Shown: positions 48,498 to 60,301 of the stretch, piece after piece
How positions within the stretch are numbered: position 1 is the stretch's first letter
Layout of the letters: each line of letters starts with the position of its first letter
From: Mycolicibacterium aichiense
Lineage (GTDB): Bacteria > Actinomycetota > Actinomycetes > Mycobacteriales > Mycobacteriaceae
Direction: 5' to 3'
Length of the DNA stretch: 64,000 nucleotides
NCBI RefSeq assembly: GCF_010726245.1
Contig: NZ_AP022561.1
Span: 5,642,001 to 5,706,000 of the forward strand
Translations under genes and position numbers: made by a program
Notes under the pieces: generated by a model
The model's input: the letters and a program-made list of their open reading frames with translations, nothing else
The model's database searches: none
What the model was told of the DNA's origin: nothing

Positions 48498-49826
48498 CTA
48501 GCCGCGGCGGTGTACCACGACGCGCCCACCCTTTTTCGGGGTGAACGCCACGCCCCGGGAGTGCCACTTCTCCCCCGGCGCGCTGGTGGTCGCGATCGTG
48601 ACGTGCCGCAACACCGTACGCAGGACGACGTCCATCTCCATGTTGGCGAACGCGGCGCCGATGCAGCGCCGGGTCCCCCCGCCGAACGGGACCCACGCGA
48701 AGGTGTTGGGCTTGGTGTCGAGAAACCGCAGCGGGTCGAAGCGCTCCGGATCGGGAAACATCTCCGGATTCTCGTGCAGCTGGCACAGGCTGACCATCAC
48801 TGAATAGCCTTGCGGCACAACCCATTCACCGAGTTCGTAGCTCGGCGCCTGTACGTGACGGCCAGAGAAGTCGATCACCGTCCGATTGCGCTGGACTTCC
48901 AGGATCGTGGCCTGTCGATAGGCGTTGTCGTCGGTGGCGGCTTCGGCTACCAGCCGGCTCAGCACCTCGGGGTGGCGGGAGATCCGCTCGAAGGCCCACG
49001 CGAGCGTGGACGCGGTGGTCTCATGGCCGGCGGCCAGCAGAGTCAGCAGTTCGTCGCCGATCTCGCCGCGCGTCATCGCCGAGCCGTCGTCGTAGGTGCT
49101 GCGCAGGAACAGCGACAGCACATCGGTGCGGTCCTCGAGGTTGGGGTCGCTCTGCGCCTGGCTGATCAGCGTGTCCACCAGGCGCTCGTACTCCCGGCGG
49201 TACTCGACGAGCTTTCCCCACGGCGTCCAGGGCATTTCCCGCTTCGGCGAAGGCAGCACAGCCAGCCGGGATCCCAGCGTCACCCACTTCGGGATGAGCT
49301 CGCGCAGGCGCTGCAACTCGACACCGTCGGCGCCGAAAATCGCCCGCAGAATGATGTTCAACGTAATGTGCATCATCGGCTCGAGCGTTTCGAATTCGGT
49401 TCCCTGCGGCCAGGATTCGATCTCGCGCAGAGTCTCCTCGACCACGATCTGCTCATAGGCCCGGATGCTCTTGCCGTGGAACGGCGGGGTGAGTAGCTTG
49501 CGCCGCACCCGGTGCTCGACGCCGTCGAGGGCGAAGACCGAACCCGGGCCCAGCAGCCGGCTCAGATTGGGCTGGATGTTGTAGAGGATGTCCGGGCTGG
49601 TGGTGAAGATCTGCTTGGTCAGCGCGGGGTCGGACACGACGACGGTGTTGCCGAACACCGGTATCCGCACGGTGACGCAGCGCCCGTAGCGTCGGGTCAT
49701 CCACTCGGTCGTGGGCCGGCGGGCCATCATGAACGCAAAGCTGACCAGTGCATTCGGCAACCCCGGTGACGGCGGCAACTTCGTTTCGGCACGGACCGGC
49801 GCGGCGACGGTTGACGCTTGGCTCAT
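48498..49826 (-). CDS. cyp138: Cytochrome P450 (CYP138-like)
   Basis: 442 residues, full length. I-helix oxygen-binding LLAAGHETTAS, K-helix ExxR in EVQRNRTVID, and the haem-Cys loop FGGGTRRCIGAAFA. GGGAGGG lies before the ATG at 49826. Length, the divergent TetR and the converging msrA match Rv0136 (from memory). Substrate unknown; soluble monooxygenase needing a ferredoxin not encoded here. Confidence 0.93.
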   Translation of the reverse strand: MSQASTVAAPVRAETKLPPSPGLPNALVSFAFMMARRPTTEWMTRRYGRCVTVRIPVFGNTVVVSDPALTKQIFTTSPDILYNIQPNLSRLLGPGSVFALDGVEHRVRRKLLTPPFHGKSIRAYEQIVVEETLREIESWPQGTEFETLEPMMHITLNIILRAIFGADGVELQRLRELIPKWVTLGSRLAVLPSPKREMPWTPWGKLVEYRREYERLVDTLISQAQSDPNLEDRTDVLSLFLRSTYDDGSAMTRGEIGDELLTLLAAGHETTASTLAWAFERISRHPEVLSRLVAEAATDDNAYRQATILEVQRNRTVIDFSGRHVQAPSYELGEWVVPQGYSVMVSLCQLHENPEMFPDPERFDPLRFLDTKPNTFAWVPFGGGTRRCIGAAFANMEMDVVLRTVLRHVTIATTSAPGEKWHSRGVAFTPKKGGRVVVHRRG

Positions 49827-49850
49827 CGGTGACGCCCTCCCACACATTGC

Positions 49851-49901
49851 GTGGTACCGCGTTGTACCACTGGCTTGTGGGGTACGGTACCCTTCGGTAC
49901 C
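49851..49901. promoter_or_regulatory. Cluster of GGTAC palindromes between P450 and TetR genes
   Basis: GTGGTAC-N6-GTACCAC at 49851-49870 (perfect 7-bp arms), GGGTAC-G-GTACCC at 49880-49892 (perfect) and GGTACC at 49896-49901. All share the half-site GGTAC and lie in the 109-bp divergent promoter, so they are the likely operators of the adjacent TetR. Confidence 0.7.
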
Positions 49902-49935
49902 AGCCCTGACAAGGGTGGCGTGCGAAAGGAGGTCG

Positions 49936-50562
49936 GTGACCACGACAGCCGTTCCCGAGGCTCCTGCCGTCGGCCGAAACGACGGCTTCCGACGGCGGCT
50001 GCTCGACGGGCTTGCCGCGTCTATCGAAGAACGCGGCTACCGCGACACCACCGTCGCCGACATCGTCCGATACGCCCGCACCTCCAAGCGCACCTTCTAC
50101 AGCGAGTTCGCCACCAAGGAAGACTGTTTCGCCGAGTTGCTCACCGCCAACAACGACGAACTCGTCGAGGCAATCAGCGCTGCCGTCGATCCGCGCGCGC
50201 CCTGGCATGAGCAGATCCGCCAAGCCGTGGTCACCTACGTCGAGCACATCGACGAGCGGCGCGCGATCACCTTGAGCTGGATCCGCGAACTGCCCGCCTT
50301 GGGCGAGTATGCCCGGCCCACCCTGCGCCGGGGGTTCGCCCGACTCGCCACCATGATCGTCGACCTGTCCAGTAACGACGGATTCCGAACCGCCGGACTG
50401 CCGCCGATCTCTCATGCTATGGCGGTCATCCTGGTCGGCGGCCTGCGCGAGCTCACCGCGCAAACTATGGAGGACGGCGATCCGGCCAGCGACATCATCG
50501 AGCCGGCGCTGGCCGTCTCGCTCGCGTTGCTGGGGCCGAGACCTCAGTTTCCTAAGGTTTGA
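49936..50562 (+). CDS. TetR-family regulator divergent from the P450 (Rv0135c-like)
   Basis: 208 residues from GTG at 49936 with AAAGGAGG upstream; the frame is open further upstream but would cover the promoter. HTH: RRRLLDGLAASIEERGYRDTTVADIVRYARTSKRTFYSEFATKEDCFAELL. Probably represses cyp138 and itself through the GGTAC palindromes. Overlaps the ADH gene tail to tail by 11 bp. Confidence 0.93.
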   Translation: MTTTAVPEAPAVGRNDGFRRRLLDGLAASIEERGYRDTTVADIVRYARTSKRTFYSEFATKEDCFAELLTANNDELVEAISAAVDPRAPWHEQIRQAVVTYVEHIDERRAITLSWIRELPALGEYARPTLRRGFARLATMIVDLSSNDGFRTAGLPPISHAMAVILVGGLRELTAQTMEDGDPASDIIEPALAVSLALLGPRPQFPKV

Positions 50563-51783: not shown

Positions 51784-52302
51784 TCAAACACAGCGCGGAG
51801 TGACGAACGCGAACGGCCGCGCAAAACCGAGCCGCGCCAGCCGACTGCGACGGATGTCCTCGATGGCTATGTCGAGCAGCGCACCGGAGGACGGTTCGTA
51901 ACACCGCAGCGCGGCGCCGTCGATCTCGAACAGCAGCACCCAATGACGCGGCAGCACCGCACCGATCAGCATCGCCACCGGCCAGCCCGCGGCCACCGCA
52001 TCGCACACGTCGGCCAGCCCGTCGTGGCACCGGGCCGGACGCCAGCGGTAGCGCACACCGCGGGCGATGCTGTGCTCGGTCATGGCCCGCGCCACACCGG
52101 CCGGGGTGGCGCCCAGAGCGTGCGGCCACACCACGTTGATCGCCCGGTGCACCCGAGCCTGCTCAGCGTCGAACCACGGCTGCGGCCGCTCGGCGTGCAG
52201 CGGGGCGCCGTACTCAACGTCGAGGAGCGCGCCTGTCATCACGGCCACACTCGGCCCGCAGCTGACGCCGTCGCGCTGGCGGGGCCACCCGGACACATCC
52301 AT
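51784..52302 (-). CDS. Stand-alone C39-like papain-fold cysteine peptidase
   Basis: 172 residues from ATG at 52302. The oxyanion Gln9 and nucleophile Cys15 are in QRDGVSCGPS, His120 in LPRHWVLLFEIDG, and the usual triad Asp-Pro is Glu136-Pro137 (CYEPSSG). This follows the pattern of the C39 bacteriocin-processing peptidases (Q....CG, HWVVL, DP..G), but without the ABC transporter they are normally fused to, and with Asp replaced by Glu. C39 enzymes cut after Gly-Gly in leader peptides. The divergent gene 100 bp away encodes a small peptide with an early Gly-Gly. Function inferred; it may be a non-proteolytic relative. Confidence 0.7.
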   Translation of the reverse strand: MDVSGWPRQRDGVSCGPSVAVMTGALLDVEYGAPLHAERPQPWFDAEQARVHRAINVVWPHALGATPAGVARAMTEHSIARGVRYRWRPARCHDGLADVCDAVAAGWPVAMLIGAVLPRHWVLLFEIDGAALRCYEPSSGALLDIAIEDIRRSRLARLGFARPFAFVTPRCV

Positions 52303-52402
52303 CTCGCTTCCGACGGTTTCAGTCGCTGTCGGCGCGGTAACTCCGTTCGCACCTATCCCTGCACACTGTGCCGTGCTCTTGCGGTTCGCGAAAGGATCTT
52401 TC

Positions 52403-52588
52403 ATGGCGCTCAACGACGACGACATCACGACTTCCACCCCCGGCGGCGAGGGCACCGCTGACGGCGGCTCCAATCCCGAAGGCCACGATGGCGGTGCCGA
52501 CGGCACGGCCGACGGCGGCGGTGAAGGCCCCGCCGACGGTGGTTCGAACCCCGAAGGCCACGACGGCGGCGCCGACGGCACCGCCTGA
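52403..52588 (+). CDS. Small acidic repeat peptide, candidate RiPP-type precursor (61 aa)
   Basis: ATG with AAAGGA 7 nt upstream. The 61 residues are almost entirely Asp, Glu, Gly, Ala, Thr, Ser, Pro and Asn, with two His and no Lys, Arg or Cys. After a leader-like MALNDDDITTSTPGG, two 25-residue repeats begin with GGEG at residues 14 and 39 and contain DGGSNPEGHDGGADGTA. Gly-Gly at 14-15 would suit a C39-type cut. It lies 9 bp upstream of a JmjC/cupin oxygenase gene, which could hydroxylate the repeated His, Asn or Asp. No homologue is known to me. Confidence 0.65.
   Translation: MALNDDDITTSTPGGEGTADGGSNPEGHDGGADGTADGGGEGPADGGSNPEGHDGGADGTA
52442..52585 (+). repeat. 75-bp tandem repeat inside the peptide gene
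   Basis: Two copies, 52442-52516 and 52517-52585 (the second slightly truncated), encode the 25-aa repeat. The amino acids are more conserved than third codon positions, so the repeat is under protein-level selection and is not a very recent duplication. Confidence 0.75.
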
Positions 52589-52597
52589 CCCGGTTCC

Positions 52598-53803
52598 ATG
52601 CTGAGCCGCTGCAGTGCGGTCGACGCGCAGACGTTCGCCGACCAGTACTGGGGCCGTAAGCCGCTCCTCAGCTCAGCCGCCGACCTGCCCCGGGACTTCA
52701 GCGATCTGCTGTCTCCCGGGGCGGTCGACGAGCTGATAGCCGAGCGCGGTGTCCGGGCACCATTCATCAGGCTGGCCCGCGACGGCGAGATCCTCGCCAA
52801 AGACTGCTATCTCGGCCCGGCCGGGTTCGGCGCAGAGATCGCCGACCAGGTCGACTCGGCGAAGGTCCTCGCCGAATTGGCCACGGGCGCAACGGTTGTC
52901 CTACAGGGCCTACACCGGCTATGGCCGCCGGTGATCGACTTCGTTCGCGACGCCGTCGACGATCTCGGCCATCCCGTGCAGGCCAATGCCTACATCACAC
53001 CCCCGGGCAACCGCGGCTTCGACCCGCACTACGACGTCCACGACGTCTTCGTACTACAGGTATCCGGACAGAAGCGCTGGGTGGTGCACGAACCGGTCCA
53101 CCACCATCCCCTACCCGACCAGCCGTGGACCCAGCATCGGGCGGCGATCGACCAACGAGTGCGCGGCGAGCCGGTGATCGACGCCGTGCTGAACGCCGGC
53201 GACGCGCTGTACCTGCCCCGAGGCTGGCTCCATGCGGCTCAGGCGCTCGACACCACGTCGATTCACCTCACCATCGGTGTCTCGTCCACCACCGGGCTCG
53301 ATGTGGCGCGCGCCGTGCTCGACGAGCTGTCCCGTGTCGAGGCCTTCCGCCGATCCCTGCCCATGGGTATCGCAGCCGATCAGGACGAGACGGCCGCCAC
53401 GGTGACCAAGGTGATGGCCGAGATGGTGGCGGCGTTGCGGGACAACGCGGCAACCGTGAGCACTGGCGCCGCCGCGCGGCTGACCGACCGGTACGCCGGG
53501 CTGACCCGACCCGTCGCGGTCCGTCCGTTGGCCACCCTGAGCGCAGCCGCCGACGCCGACGCCGAGGTGCGGTGGCGCCGTGGCCTGGTGGCCGGCCTGG
53601 ACAGTTCGGACGGCCGGGTTGTTCTTCGGCTTCCCGACCGGACCATCACGTTCCCCGCGTCCTGCGCCGGGGCGCTGCGCGCGCTGCACCGCGGCGAGGT
53701 GGTGCGGTCCGCCGCGCTGCCGGGGCTCGACCCCGCTGACGGTGCGGTTCTGATCCGGCGCCTGCTCAAGGAAGCAGTCGTCGTCCCCGCCCCTGCGCCA
53801 TGA
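52598..53803 (+). CDS. JmjC/cupin-4 Fe(II)/2-oxoglutarate oxygenase
   Basis: 401 residues. JmjC metal triad: His144-X-Asp146 in DPHYDVHDVFVLQ and His212 in YLPRGWLHAA, plus QVSGQKRWVVH, as in ribosomal oxygenases YcfD/NO66/MINA53, which hydroxylate Arg or His. A C-terminal winged-helix-like part (about 330-401) is usual for this group. It sits between the repeat peptide (9 bp) and the next gene (ATGA overlap). The peptide has no Arg, so His28/His53, Asn or Asp are the plausible targets. A ribosomal-protein substrate is the alternative. Confidence 0.85.
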   Translation: MLSRCSAVDAQTFADQYWGRKPLLSSAADLPRDFSDLLSPGAVDELIAERGVRAPFIRLARDGEILAKDCYLGPAGFGAEIADQVDSAKVLAELATGATVVLQGLHRLWPPVIDFVRDAVDDLGHPVQANAYITPPGNRGFDPHYDVHDVFVLQVSGQKRWVVHEPVHHHPLPDQPWTQHRAAIDQRVRGEPVIDAVLNAGDALYLPRGWLHAAQALDTTSIHLTIGVSSTTGLDVARAVLDELSRVEAFRRSLPMGIAADQDETAATVTKVMAEMVAALRDNAATVSTGAAARLTDRYAGLTRPVAVRPLATLSAAADADAEVRWRRGLVAGLDSSDGRVVLRLPDRTITFPASCAGALRALHRGEVVRSAALPGLDPADGAVLIRRLLKEAVVVPAPAP

Positions 53804-54723
53804 GTAGAGCCGGGCAGGGCTGCAGCGACCAGTCGCTGGCCCGCAACGACCCGATGTACGGGACGGCATCGGCCGGTACGTCGTGGCTGCTGCTCGAATT
53901 GGGAGGCGGCTGGGGACATTCGGCGTTCCTGGGCTCACCGTCGTGTATCGACCCGAAGCTGGGGCTGGCCGTCGTCCGGCGCGCCGAATCAGCCGGCATG
54001 CGGATCGCGGCGATCCGCAAGCACGGCCGCCGGGAGACCGCGCCACGATGGCGCTGGTTCGTCGCGCAGTGCACCGTCGGCAGCGAAGCGTTGTACGGCG
54101 GCGAGGTAACCGACCCGCGTGACTACCTCGACGTTGCGTTGGACGGCTCTGACGGCACTGTCTCGACCGACCCGCTCGTCGCGGTCTGCGCCCATGGCCG
54201 CCACGACATGTGCTGCGCCGTGCGCGGCCGGTCGGCTGCCGCGGCGATCGCCGCCGTTTATCCCGAATTCGCCTGGGAATGCTCACATCTGGGCGGTGAT
54301 CGGTTCGCGGCGACCATGCTCGTGCTGCCCGCGGGACTGTGTTACGGGCGAGTGGACCAGGCTGACGCGGCCGAACTGGTGAGCCGCTACCTGCACGGCC
54401 GGCTGGACGACCGGTTCCTGCGCGGACGCACGTCACTTCCCCACGCTGTGCAGGCCGCACAGCATTTCGCCCGAGAGGCGTTCGGCGACGATCGCATAGC
54501 CGCCTTCCCCCCGTTGGAGGTCGAGCCGGGTGACGGCACCATCCGGGTGGTGCTCGGCGCCGATCCCGACCCGGTCGAGGTGGTGCTCAACGAGGAGCTC
54601 TCGGAGCCTCTGCTGTCGCAATGCAACGCCACCGTGCCGGGGCGGGTGCGGATCTACACGCTCGCCTCGCTTACGACGGTGGGAAGCCGCCCGTCGCCAC
54701 CGGACCCCAACGCTGCGGGGTGA
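53800..54723 (+). CDS. Sucrase/ferredoxin-like family protein (thioredoxin-fold [2Fe-2S])
   Basis: 307 residues overlapping the oxygenase stop by ATGA. Family hallmarks: an N-terminal Cys (GCSDQSLARNDPMYGTAS), LVAVCAHGRHDMCCAVRGR with clustered Cys/His as cluster ligands, ECSHLGGDRFAATMLVLP and DQADAAELVSRYLHGR. Such proteins are thioredoxin-fold iron-sulfur proteins, possibly redox partners. Coupling to the oxygenase suggests it supplies electrons or protects its iron, an inference. Its 3' end overlaps the PPOX gene tail to tail by 53 bp. Confidence 0.88.
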   Translation: MSRAGQGCSDQSLARNDPMYGTASAGTSWLLLELGGGWGHSAFLGSPSCIDPKLGLAVVRRAESAGMRIAAIRKHGRRETAPRWRWFVAQCTVGSEALYGGEVTDPRDYLDVALDGSDGTVSTDPLVAVCAHGRHDMCCAVRGRSAAAAIAAVYPEFAWECSHLGGDRFAATMLVLPAGLCYGRVDQADAAELVSRYLHGRLDDRFLRGRTSLPHAVQAAQHFAREAFGDDRIAAFPPLEVEPGDGTIRVVLGADPDPVEVVLNEELSEPLLSQCNATVPGRVRIYTLASLTTVGSRPSPPDPNAAG

Positions 54724-57809: not shown

Positions 57810-59084
57810 ATGTCCGCCGAAGCGCCGTCACCGGCCGCGCCGAAGGGCCAGCCCGGGCATATCCGGCTGACATCGCATCACGGCGCCGACGACGCCCTGC
57901 CGATCAGCTGGGGCGCGGCCACCCCCGCCGAGCGCGGTCCGCTGATCGGCACCACCAGTACCCGCAGTCACCGCAACGTCGTTGGTACCCATAGCGGTTC
58001 ATACAGCGTGTATCGCGCGCTGGCAGTGGCCGCCGGAGCGCTGTCACGCGAGCATCGGGCCGACCTGACCAACACCGCGCCCACCGACAGCATCGGCCCC
58101 TACCCGCAATGGAGTCGTCCCGAGGCAATCGTCAGCCTCGACCCGTGGGGGGCGATGGTGGCCGACGCGTTCGCCGCCGAACTGGCCGCCGGACACGACA
58201 TCCGGCCGACCATCGCGGTGACCAAAGCTCACGTGATACTTCCGGAGATCGCCGACGCCATCGACAAGGGGCGGCTGGTCCCGGACGGCCGGTTCTTGTT
58301 GCCCGGCGGCGCGGCGCTGGTGACCAAGGCCGCGATCGAGCCGGTCTGGTATCTGCCTGGTGTCGCCGAGCGTTTCGGGTGCAGCGAGGCGCATCTCCGC
58401 CGGGTCCTGTTCGAAGAGACCGGGGGCATGTACCCCGAGCTGGTCACGCGAAGCGATCTCGAGGTCTTCCTTCCCCCCATCGGGGGGCAGACCCTCTACA
58501 TCTTCGGCAACGCCCACGATCTCGCCGACCCCTCAGTGGAACTGACGGCTCGGGTTCACGACGAATGCAACGGCTCAGATGTGTTCGGCTCCGACATCTG
58601 TACCTGCCGGCCGTATCTGACGCACGCGATCGAGGAATGCATCCTCGGTGCCCAGCGCGGCGGCGTCGGGCTGGTCGCCTACTCCCGCAAGGAAGGTCGT
58701 GCGCTCGGCGAGGTGACCAAGTTCCTGGTCTACAACGCCCGCAAGCGTCAGCAGGGCGGCGACACCGCCGAGGCATACTTCGCCCGCACCGAATGCGTTG
58801 CGGGAGTGCAGGACATGCGATTCCAGGAGTTGATGCCCGACGTACTGCACTGGCTGGGCATCCAGAAGATCCACCGCCTGGTGTCGATGAGCAACATGAA
58901 GTACGACGCGATCGTCGGCTCCGGGATCGAGGTCGGCGAGCGGGTCAACATCCCCGACGAGTTGATCCCGGCCGACGCTCGGGTGGAGATCGACGCCAAA
59001 ATGGCTGCAGGCTACTTCACGCCCGGTCCGGTTCCGGATGCCGCCGAATTGAAGAAGGCCAAGGGCCGCGGGCTGGAGCATTGA
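57810..59084 (+). CDS. URC1-type GTP cyclohydrolase II homologue (uracil catabolism)
   Basis: 424 residues. A C-terminal GCH II-like domain has the zinc Cys in VHDECNGSDVFGSDICTCRPYL and the substrate loop YSRKEGRALGEVTKFL where riboflavin enzymes have RQEGRGIG. A 200-residue N-terminal extension (WGAATPAERGPLIGTT...THSGSYSVYRALAVAAG) is typical of the URC1 family. In yeast, URC1 acts in an alternative pyrimidine-degradation route. Here it overlaps a URC4 gene (TGATG), followed by uracil phosphoribosyltransferase, which fixes the assignment. Confidence 0.9.
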   Translation: MSAEAPSPAAPKGQPGHIRLTSHHGADDALPISWGAATPAERGPLIGTTSTRSHRNVVGTHSGSYSVYRALAVAAGALSREHRADLTNTAPTDSIGPYPQWSRPEAIVSLDPWGAMVADAFAAELAAGHDIRPTIAVTKAHVILPEIADAIDKGRLVPDGRFLLPGGAALVTKAAIEPVWYLPGVAERFGCSEAHLRRVLFEETGGMYPELVTRSDLEVFLPPIGGQTLYIFGNAHDLADPSVELTARVHDECNGSDVFGSDICTCRPYLTHAIEECILGAQRGGVGLVAYSRKEGRALGEVTKFLVYNARKRQQGGDTAEAYFARTECVAGVQDMRFQELMPDVLHWLGIQKIHRLVSMSNMKYDAIVGSGIEVGERVNIPDELIPADARVEIDAKMAAGYFTPGPVPDAAELKKAKGRGLEH

Positions 59085-60301
59085 TGGGCGCCGCGATCGA
59101 GGTCGACGTGGACAGCCCGGCGGGGGCGGCCGCTGCGCTGCGCAGTACTCGCGCCGTCCGTGAGCGGGCGGGATTGTTGACCGAACGCGCCCGCGCAGGC
59201 GATTCGCGGTGGTTCACGGTGCACGACGATGCACTGGACGCGGCCGCCGAATCGGTCGCCGAGGTCACCCGTCGACACTATCCGGATCTGCAGGTCCCGT
59301 TCCACAGCCGCTGGCGCCATTTCGAGGCCGGCGGTGTCGATCGCAGGGCTGAGCTACTCAGCCGCGCCGAGGCCACGGCGCTGGTCGACCTCACCGTGGT
59401 CAGCGTGCTGCTCGACGCCGGCGCCGGCCCGTCCTGGTCCTATGTCGAACCGGGGACGGGGCTACAGCTGAGCCGTTCAGAAGGCTTGGGGGTGGCGAGC
59501 TTTCACGCCTTTGCCTCGGGACTGTTCTCCTCCCACCCGGACGATCCGCTGCGGGTCGACACCGCCGGGCTGGCAGGGCTCACCGAACAGCGGCTTGCCG
59601 ACGCGTTCCAGGTCGACGGCACGAATCCGCTCGTCGGCCTCGACGGCCGGGTGGCGATCCTGCACCGGCTGGGTGCGGTCACCGCCGCCCAACCGGAGGT
59701 ATTCGGCGCCGATGGCCGCCCGGGCGGATTGGTCCACGCCGTGGGGGGCAGCTCAGCCCGCGCATCCGAGCTGTTGTCGATGGTGCTGGACTCGCTGGCG
59801 CCAATTTGGCCGGGCGGCAGCATGATCGGTGACGAACCCCTCGGCGACTGCTGGCGGCACTCCGCGCTGGACGGTCCCGGCCTGACCGCGGGATGGATGC
59901 CGTTTCACAAACTCTCGCAGTGGCTCACGTACTCGCTGCTGGAGCCGTTCAGCTGGGCCGGGATCACCGTGACCGATCTCGACGAGCTGACCGGGCTGCC
60001 CGAGTACCGCAACGGTGGACTGCTGCTGGACAGCGGTGTTCTCCGGTTGCGCAACAGCGCGGATGCCACTCGAAGTGTCAGCGTCGCAGACGAATTGGTG
60101 GTCGAGTGGCGCGCGCTGACCGTCACACTGCTCGACGAGCTCGCTCCCCTGGTCCGTCGGCGGCTCGGCGTCGACGCCGACCAGATGCCACTGGCGCGGG
60201 TCTTGGAGGGCGGCACCTGGGCGGCAGGCAGGACACTCGCTCAGCAGCTGCGCGGCGGCCTCCCGCCGCTGTCCATCGCCAGCGATGGCACAGTGTTCTG
60301 A
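59084..60301 (+). CDS. URC4 (DUF1688) protein of uracil catabolism
   Basis: 405 residues. DUF1688 signatures: [82 protein letters not shown] and [15 protein letters not shown]. The family is essential for the yeast URC pathway, though its reaction is not established. Starts within the URC1 stop and ends within the upp start (both TGATG), so the three proteins are tightly co-translated. Confidence 0.93.

Follow-up and report, generated by a model that had tools for sequence, protein, structure and literature searches.

We analyzed a 64,000-nucleotide stretch of the Mycolicibacterium aichiense genome (contig NZ_AP022561.1, positions 5,642,001 to 5,706,000; hereafter the window, whose own numbering we use) and focused on a small locus that encodes a repeat peptide next to a putative oxygenase. 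The peptide gene (52403-52588, plus strand) encodes a precursor-like product of 61 aa, which consists of the leader MALNDDDITTSTP followed by two repeats (52442-52510 and 52517-52585). After a gap of 9 bp comes a gene on the same strand (52598-53803) for a 401-aa JmjC_2 (PF08007) Fe(II)/2-oxoglutarate oxygenase with a predicted NO66/MINA53-like fold and a C-terminal winged-helix domain. This gene overlaps by 4 bp the next one (53800-54723, plus strand), whose 307-aa product is a sucrase/ferredoxin-like protein (SucFer, PF06999; Pfam E = 9.3e-16) that may bind a [2Fe-2S] cluster. A site resembling a SigF-type promoter, GTTT-N15-CGGTA (52316-52339, plus strand), is located 63 bp upstream of the peptide ATG, and a divergent gene that starts 100 bp from the peptide gene (51784-52302, minus strand) encodes a C39-like cysteine peptidase of 172 aa. 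An earlier, sequence-only reading had joined these four adjacent open reading frames (ORFs), all of which are present and spaced as it described, into a single precursor-plus-enzymes pathway. Based on genus-wide co-occurrence and counts of peptidase adjacency, we find that this logic applies to the peptide, JmjC, and SucFer genes, which form one conserved module, and that it does not extend to the peptidase, a lineage-local neighbor that adjoins the module in 6 of 53 genomes of the genus and is no part of its core.

The three genes are found together within the genus and in a number of other genera. GTDB species genomes were scanned for relatives of JmjC; of the 170 identified we kept 80 loci (the near set), which represent Mycobacterium/Mycolicibacterium, Gordonia, Dietzia, Williamsia, Rhodococcus/Rhodococcoides, Antrihabitans, Herbiconiux, and Agreia; the window JmjC is 90% identical to its homolog in Mycolicibacterium rhodesiae and 76% identical to that in M. 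litorale. Using tblastn, we find the peptide upstream of JmjC in 80/80 of these loci and SucFer downstream in 79/80. In a separate sample of 148 genomes from the genus, in which strong matches to the JmjC clade were counted and seven genomes with only a weaker JmjC_2 paralog were excluded, peptide, JmjC, and SucFer are found in the identical 53 genomes with zero orphans (Fisher p = 1.7e-41, kinship of the genomes ignored). Precursor and enzyme are therefore inherited together, as in pathways for ribosomally synthesized and post-translationally modified peptides (RiPPs), and the ferredoxin-like partner that had been noted beside JmjC is confirmed both by its Pfam match and by its presence in the same 53 genomes. 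Genomes G030, G046, G059, G072, G083, G100, and G131 carry a second, distant JmjC_2 lineage that has neither precursor nor SucFer.

The peptide gene encodes a protein under selection. In the window, the two repeats predicted for the 61-aa peptide are indeed present at a spacing of 75 nt, and over 23 compared codons they differ at 11 nt, which correspond to 10 synonymous and one non-synonymous codon changes; that 10 of the 11 differences are synonymous argues that the protein repeat is selected. A composition count also bears out that the peptide contains no Lys, Arg, or Cys. Within the near set, 77 of the 80 precursors were parsed as clean ORFs by a procedure that required an acidic pair near the start; of the others, two are out of frame (L004 and L018) and one contains Ns (L048). 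In L018, from M. litorale, a third repeat is out of frame and its frame continues into that of JmjC, and in L004 the frame breaks after the first repeat; either repeat slippage or assembly error could explain these breaks. There are three repeats in 59 of the 77 precursors and two in 18, so that repeat number varies while the leader is conserved, a pattern that the sequence-only reading had offered as a check. When the last 22 residues of the 77 precursors are aligned without the use of any pattern, 11 positions are fixed (E2, G3, A5, G7, G8, D15, G16, G17, A18, D19, and G20) and two others, G1 and D6, have one exception each, for a total of 13 conserved positions. Both Asp residues of the GHDGGADG segment are retained in 77/77 and His14 in 70/77; Ala replaces His in the last repeat of seven Dietzia precursors (L062, L063, L066, L067, L069, L070, and L071, with NPDGADGGADGTQ or ...GTA). 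Codon use varies while these residues stay fixed, which argues for a selected protein and against a chance ORF.

Leader and core behave differently across lineages. The near-set leader is M-A-[LI]-[DN]-D-D-D-[IM]-T-T, with Ile or Met at position 8 in 76/77 precursors and Thr10 in 75/77, and more distant leaders are still recognizable (LTDEDIETV and similar), giving a phylum-wide motif of L-x-D-E-D-I-x-T. The cores vary by lineage: Mycobacteriales and Microbacteriaceae have GEGPADGGSNPEGHDGGADGTA-type units, and other classes have DGDATDGTDADGTDA-type repeats. Two cores are odd. In L152 (genome G422), the leader LGDDDI precedes SADGTDQGVxGGTYGPRDA-type repeats, a core entirely unlike the others, and SucFer was not found within 1.1 kb downstream; in L154 (genome G257), the leader ITDNDIT is followed by two copies of PTEDDENLDAPGEHSQDTGDE, SucFer was not found within 1.6 kb, and the JmjC branch is long. 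A constant leader joined to a changing core is the pattern expected of a leader-guided pathway, and here a small precursor gene of this kind lies directly beside a modifying enzyme, as in RiPP loci. To describe core composition we used 36 precursors that lack DGGADG (the distant set). Asp, Gly, Ala, and Thr each are found in 36/36 of these cores, Asn in 13/36, and His in 10/36; the median Asp content is 32%, and most are loose Asp repeats whose spacing is not fixed. Cys is present in none of 122 distinct precursors, a set with poor start-codon choice. Among 99 candidate peptide homologs, 96 match at E <= 0.001; they have no precomputed Pfam domain and, if named, are called hypothetical. Likewise, no Pfam or NCBIfam family was matched at cut-off by the window peptide or by five other precursors.

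The module extends well beyond the genus. In a sample of 396 genomes from the phylum, 58 have a JmjC match at E <= 1e-30; by a hand tally of scores, 52 of the 396 carry the clade under study, under 17 family labels, and six do not belong to it. We examined 65 loci, 27 from the phylum sample and 38 further regions that include the seven weaker genus-sample genes, and divided them into a clade of 50 loci (at least 174 bits, with some loci such as L125-L127 repeating genomes or lineages of the near set) and an out-group of 15 loci (at most 168 bits). By a strict leader test, a precursor is present in 43/50 clade loci versus 0/15 of the lower-scoring JmjC loci. Of the seven loci that miss this test, three (L149, L157, and L182) have no more than 148 bp of upstream sequence, and in a fourth (L170) the leader is present under a farther start; with all seven accounted for, 47/47 loci that have upstream sequence contain a small acidic ORF in it. 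Among the clade loci, 41/50 have SucFer; it was not seen within the available flank at L128, L130, L134, L145, L152, L154, L157, and L172, and L156 lies at a contig end. In a tree of 80 JmjC proteins, where eight genes stand for the out-group of 15 (the rest were dropped by length or as near-copies), the distribution of the precursor needs two changes. Among the 26 largest neighbor families listed, compared by their distribution (families of at least six loci in a range of roughly 6 kb), we found no dedicated peptidase or exporter conserved beside the module; 25 of these families are confined to Mycobacteriaceae, and the remaining one includes just one member from the Rhodococcus group.

The JmjC protein has the features of a ribosomal oxygenase (ROX). 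The window protein matches JmjC_2 with E = 4.5e-29, and the His144-Asp146-His212 triad, already picked out as catalytic by the sequence-only reading, is identical, together with Lys159, in 129/129 aligned clade sequences, a few of which come from the same genome twice. We take Lys159 to be the 2-oxoglutarate-binding Lys. The predicted protein thus combines the HxD...H triad and this Lys with a ROX fold and winged helix. Its fold and sequence most resemble those of known ribosomal oxygenases (NO66, MINA53, and YcfD), of which NO66 and MINA53 are the nearest solved relatives. Enzymes of this group hydroxylate His, Asn, Asp, and Arg, and the relative FIH hydroxylates Asn, Asp, and His. The 50 matches listed from fold searches with two full-length models are all JmjC-type proteins. 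NO66 and MINA53 are described as hydroxylating His at C-3, the C-beta position (PMC9994133). In an AlphaFold2 (AF2) model with the peptide tethered to the enzyme, the mean predicted local distance difference test (pLDDT) score of leader residues 1-10 is 84, with a strand at residues 9-12, and values for core residues 14-83 stay below 50 (about 28 in most blocks), even though the alignment shows conservation of the core as well. The SucFer partner scores 58.9 bits against a Pfam gathering cut-off of 34.9 for PF06999. Eight residues are invariant in 19 aligned SucFer proteins (Cys8, Cys130, His132, His135, Cys138, Cys139, Cys161, and His163), and this pattern is consistent with a possible [2Fe-2S] protein.

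A promoter motif suggests when the mycobacterial module is expressed. The published SigF consensus is GTTT-N14-19-GGGTA plus variants (PMC4694148, PMC7693655), and SigF of M. smegmatis plays a part during stationary phase and under oxidative stress (PMC4694148). Our search pattern was initially tuned by eye and afterwards run against a background of 7056 tiles from the same loci. At a distance of up to 160 bp from the peptide start, GTTT-N14-17-GGG[ACT]A is found in 31/50 mycobacterial loci versus 29/7056 tiles, and GTTT-N15-16-[CG]GG[ACT]A in 40/50 versus 21/7056; the 50 loci are related and hence do not represent 50 independent events. The site in the window fits the [CG]GG form and not the strict GGG form, and the CGG form is backed by one published entry (GTTT-N15-CGGTA). 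The SigF regulon motif is thus present before the peptide gene, which suggests stress expression in mycobacteria. Outside the mycobacteria, CATAGT is found within 200 bp upstream of the peptide in 7/9 Gordonia and 10/10 Dietzia loci, where it is possibly a promoter element of a non-SigF type.

The peptidase belongs to a separate family. The window protein has no Pfam match at E up to 10 and no NCBIfam match at cut-off, and the predicted Gln9-Cys15-His120 set is identical in 27/27 aligned members of what is a stand-alone family with the motif Q-RDG...CGP...PRHWV...YEP or YDP. It is found in 59/148 genus genomes (four weaker matches excluded), mostly away from the module, and in only four of the 80 near-set loci did tblastn place it nearby. 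The six genomes in which it adjoins the module are G000, G004, G009, G024, G053, and G136; it is absent from 24 of the 53 module genomes, and 30 genomes without the module carry it. On these counts we reject a C39 peptidase as a core part of the module, and the proposal that it is a pathway component is not supported. The related proposal of cleavage after an early Gly-Gly is not supported for the family either, because Gly-Gly ends the leader in 64/77 near-set precursors and in 0/10 from Dietzia, and any GG is present in the first 25 residues of only 11/36 distant precursors; a double-glycine leader is thus not a family trait. Near six peptidase homologs from genomes that lack the module (L088-L092 and L094; about 1.5 kb on each side) we found no DGGADG or DGGSNP repeat.

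Elsewhere in the window, a cytochrome P450 gene on the minus strand adjoins a TetR-type regulator gene on the plus strand (48498-50562). At 57810-60301, a GTP cyclohydrolase II-like gene (PF12471, PF00925) adjoins a DUF1688 gene (PF07958), a pair that presumably resembles the uracil catabolism (URC) cluster.

Based on these data, we propose that the locus is a RiPP-like peptide-modification module in which a leader-guided JmjC oxygenase oxidizes an Asp-rich core with SucFer as its redox or iron partner, a reading to which we assign a probability of roughly 0.55. That the three-gene unit yields an oxidized peptide is the most likely outcome. The small gene would supply a leader and an Asp-rich, mostly repeated core; the NO66-like enzyme would bind the leader, as the model predicts, and oxidize the disordered core, where many Asp residues would most likely be hydroxylated at C-beta. 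SucFer would be the usual redox or iron partner, for example by returning the JmjC iron to Fe(II), and in mycobacteria the motif suggests that the unit would be switched on from a SigF-type promoter under stress. Because no conserved dedicated peptidase or exporter was found beside the module, the product may remain intracellular, or housekeeping proteases may trim it. We favor Asp as the target since it alone, among the residues known to be hydroxylated by this enzyme group, is found in every core. The sequence-only reading had predicted a hydroxylated product rich in His, Asn, and Asp; Asp (36/36 distant cores) is retained from that prediction as the probable site and His (10/36) is not.

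Several observations weigh against this interpretation. Asp as the target is argued from shared core composition, the universality of Asp is partly built in by a parsing that demanded an acidic tail, and Thr, Gly, and Ala are likewise in 36/36 distant cores. Clade and out-group were separated when precursor presence was already known, so the contrast of 43/50 versus 0/15 is not blind, and the score gap is narrow, with L153 at 174 bits carrying a precursor and L159 at 168 bits without one. Among the leader-test misses, the motif of the leader is missing from L132 and L133, which do have DGGADG repeat cores, and the acidic ORF of L134 shows no clear repeats. SucFer was not found within the flank in 9/50 distant clade loci, nor downstream in near-set locus L077. 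In the JmjC tree, the nominal out-group member L180 falls inside the precursor-bearing clade. As for leader binding, the tether in the AF2 model by itself keeps the peptide close to the enzyme, the model lacks a scrambled control, and its output does not show what the leader strand pairs with. Profile comparison of the JmjC C-terminal domain with the RiPP recognition element (RRE)/PqqD family by hhalign gives a probability of 8% for the clade and 30% for the out-group, and thus no clade-specific support for homology. L180 itself (genome G510) has a long branch, neither precursor nor SucFer was found there, and it possibly represents a loss or a change of substrate.

The main rival is that JmjC performs another oxidation, for example macrocycle formation through an ether or carbon cross-link, desaturation, backbone cleavage, or oxidation of another residue such as Thr, and we regard it as improbable yet the strongest competitor. 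Ring formation would be compatible with the strict spacing of the near-set units, Thr is as universal as Asp in the distant cores, and a possible electron-transfer partner may hint at chemistry beyond hydroxylation; however, most distant cores consist of loose, irregularly spaced Asp repeats, and the nearest relatives of known function are hydroxylases. Somewhat less probable again is hydroxylation of one His per repeat, as by NO66 and MINA53. That the nearest solved relatives are histidyl hydroxylases and that the C-terminal repeat keeps its His in 70/77 close precursors would fit this view, but core His is found in only 10/36 distant precursors, the seven Dietzia precursors have Ala and L131 has Gln at the His position, and it is both Asp of GHDGGADG that are kept in 77/77. 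It is very unlikely that JmjC is a ribosomal-protein oxygenase with the peptide incidental or as its regulator: its fold and sequence are nearest to NO66, MINA53, and YcfD, but peptide and JmjC co-occur reciprocally in 53/53 genus genomes, such a peptide accompanies 0/15 of the lower-scoring JmjC_2 genes of the phylum sample, and the leader is retained while cores diverge. Least credible is a C39-processed, bacteriocin-like RiPP whose repeats are freed by cleavage after Gly-Gly, since, for all that the window peptidase lies 100 bp away with Gln, Cys, and His intact and shows a weak genome-level association with the module (29/53 module genomes versus 30/95 without, p = 0.008, kinship ignored), it seldom adjoins the module, is often absent from module genomes, and Gly-Gly is not conserved across the family.

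We compared the proposed module with the closest known systems. NO66 (RIOX1), MINA53 (RIOX2), and YcfD belong to the same JmjC subfamily, PF08007. Unlike these enzymes, the window clade is encoded with a small repeat peptide and SucFer, never without them in the genus sample, and a ribosomal substrate is not indicated for it. BipG, BpmG, and PbsQ are described as JmjC or cupin-like hydroxylases of biphenomycin-type RiPPs that act on ornithine (PMC12707348, PMC12257519). As in those systems, a JmjC or cupin oxygenase would be paired with a ribosomal precursor peptide, which here is predicted. Their clusters, as these papers present them, contain multinuclear non-heme iron-dependent oxidative (MNIO), arginase-type, and B12-radical-S-adenosylmethionine enzymes and FHAFRF-type precursors, whereas the module in the window has acidic repeat precursors and SucFer as the sole conserved partner that we found. 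One sentence in a 2025 paper reports RRE-like domains fused to PF08007 JmjC proteins, with bacterial homologs at about 30% identity in RiPP-like contexts (PMC12710340). These proteins are of the same Pfam family as the window JmjC; section 6 of that paper gives no precursor, partner, distribution, or name for them, and they may include the present clade. Asp beta-hydroxylation in RiPPs is attributed to alpha-ketoglutarate (alphaKG)-HExxH and MNIO enzymes (PMC12636437, PMC13060819). Like those systems, the module would place hydroxylated Asp in a ribosomal peptide, and an Asp-repeat substrate does not appear in the relevant passages of the two papers. CinX and, reportedly, CanE are further RiPP Asp beta-hydroxylases, and these other enzymes have folds different from JmjC. 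In the literature searched, mostly open-access main texts, we found no description of an Asp-repeat/JmjC/SucFer system, and we provisionally rate the module as a new RiPP-like family on a known enzyme fold.

With these results, an orphan branch of bacterial JmjC_2 oxygenases gains a defined candidate substrate that can be tested, peptide natural products are linked to the fold of ribosomal oxygenases, and SucFer is indicated as a partner. Given that the module is present in 53/148 genus genomes and the clade in 52/396 genomes of the phylum, the role of the product is likely common in actinobacteria. As for what that role might be, we offer only as a speculation that the module is a stress-induced, phylum-wide ribosomal route to poly(3-hydroxyaspartate)-type peptides, in which a ROX-family enzyme has been turned to an Asp-repeat substrate with an Fe-S partner and the product binds iron or another metal in the cell. 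In siderophores, hydroxyaspartate serves as an iron ligand, and metal binding would then be the purpose of the product. If this is true, the module would be a ribosomal counterpart of the hydroxyaspartate siderophores.

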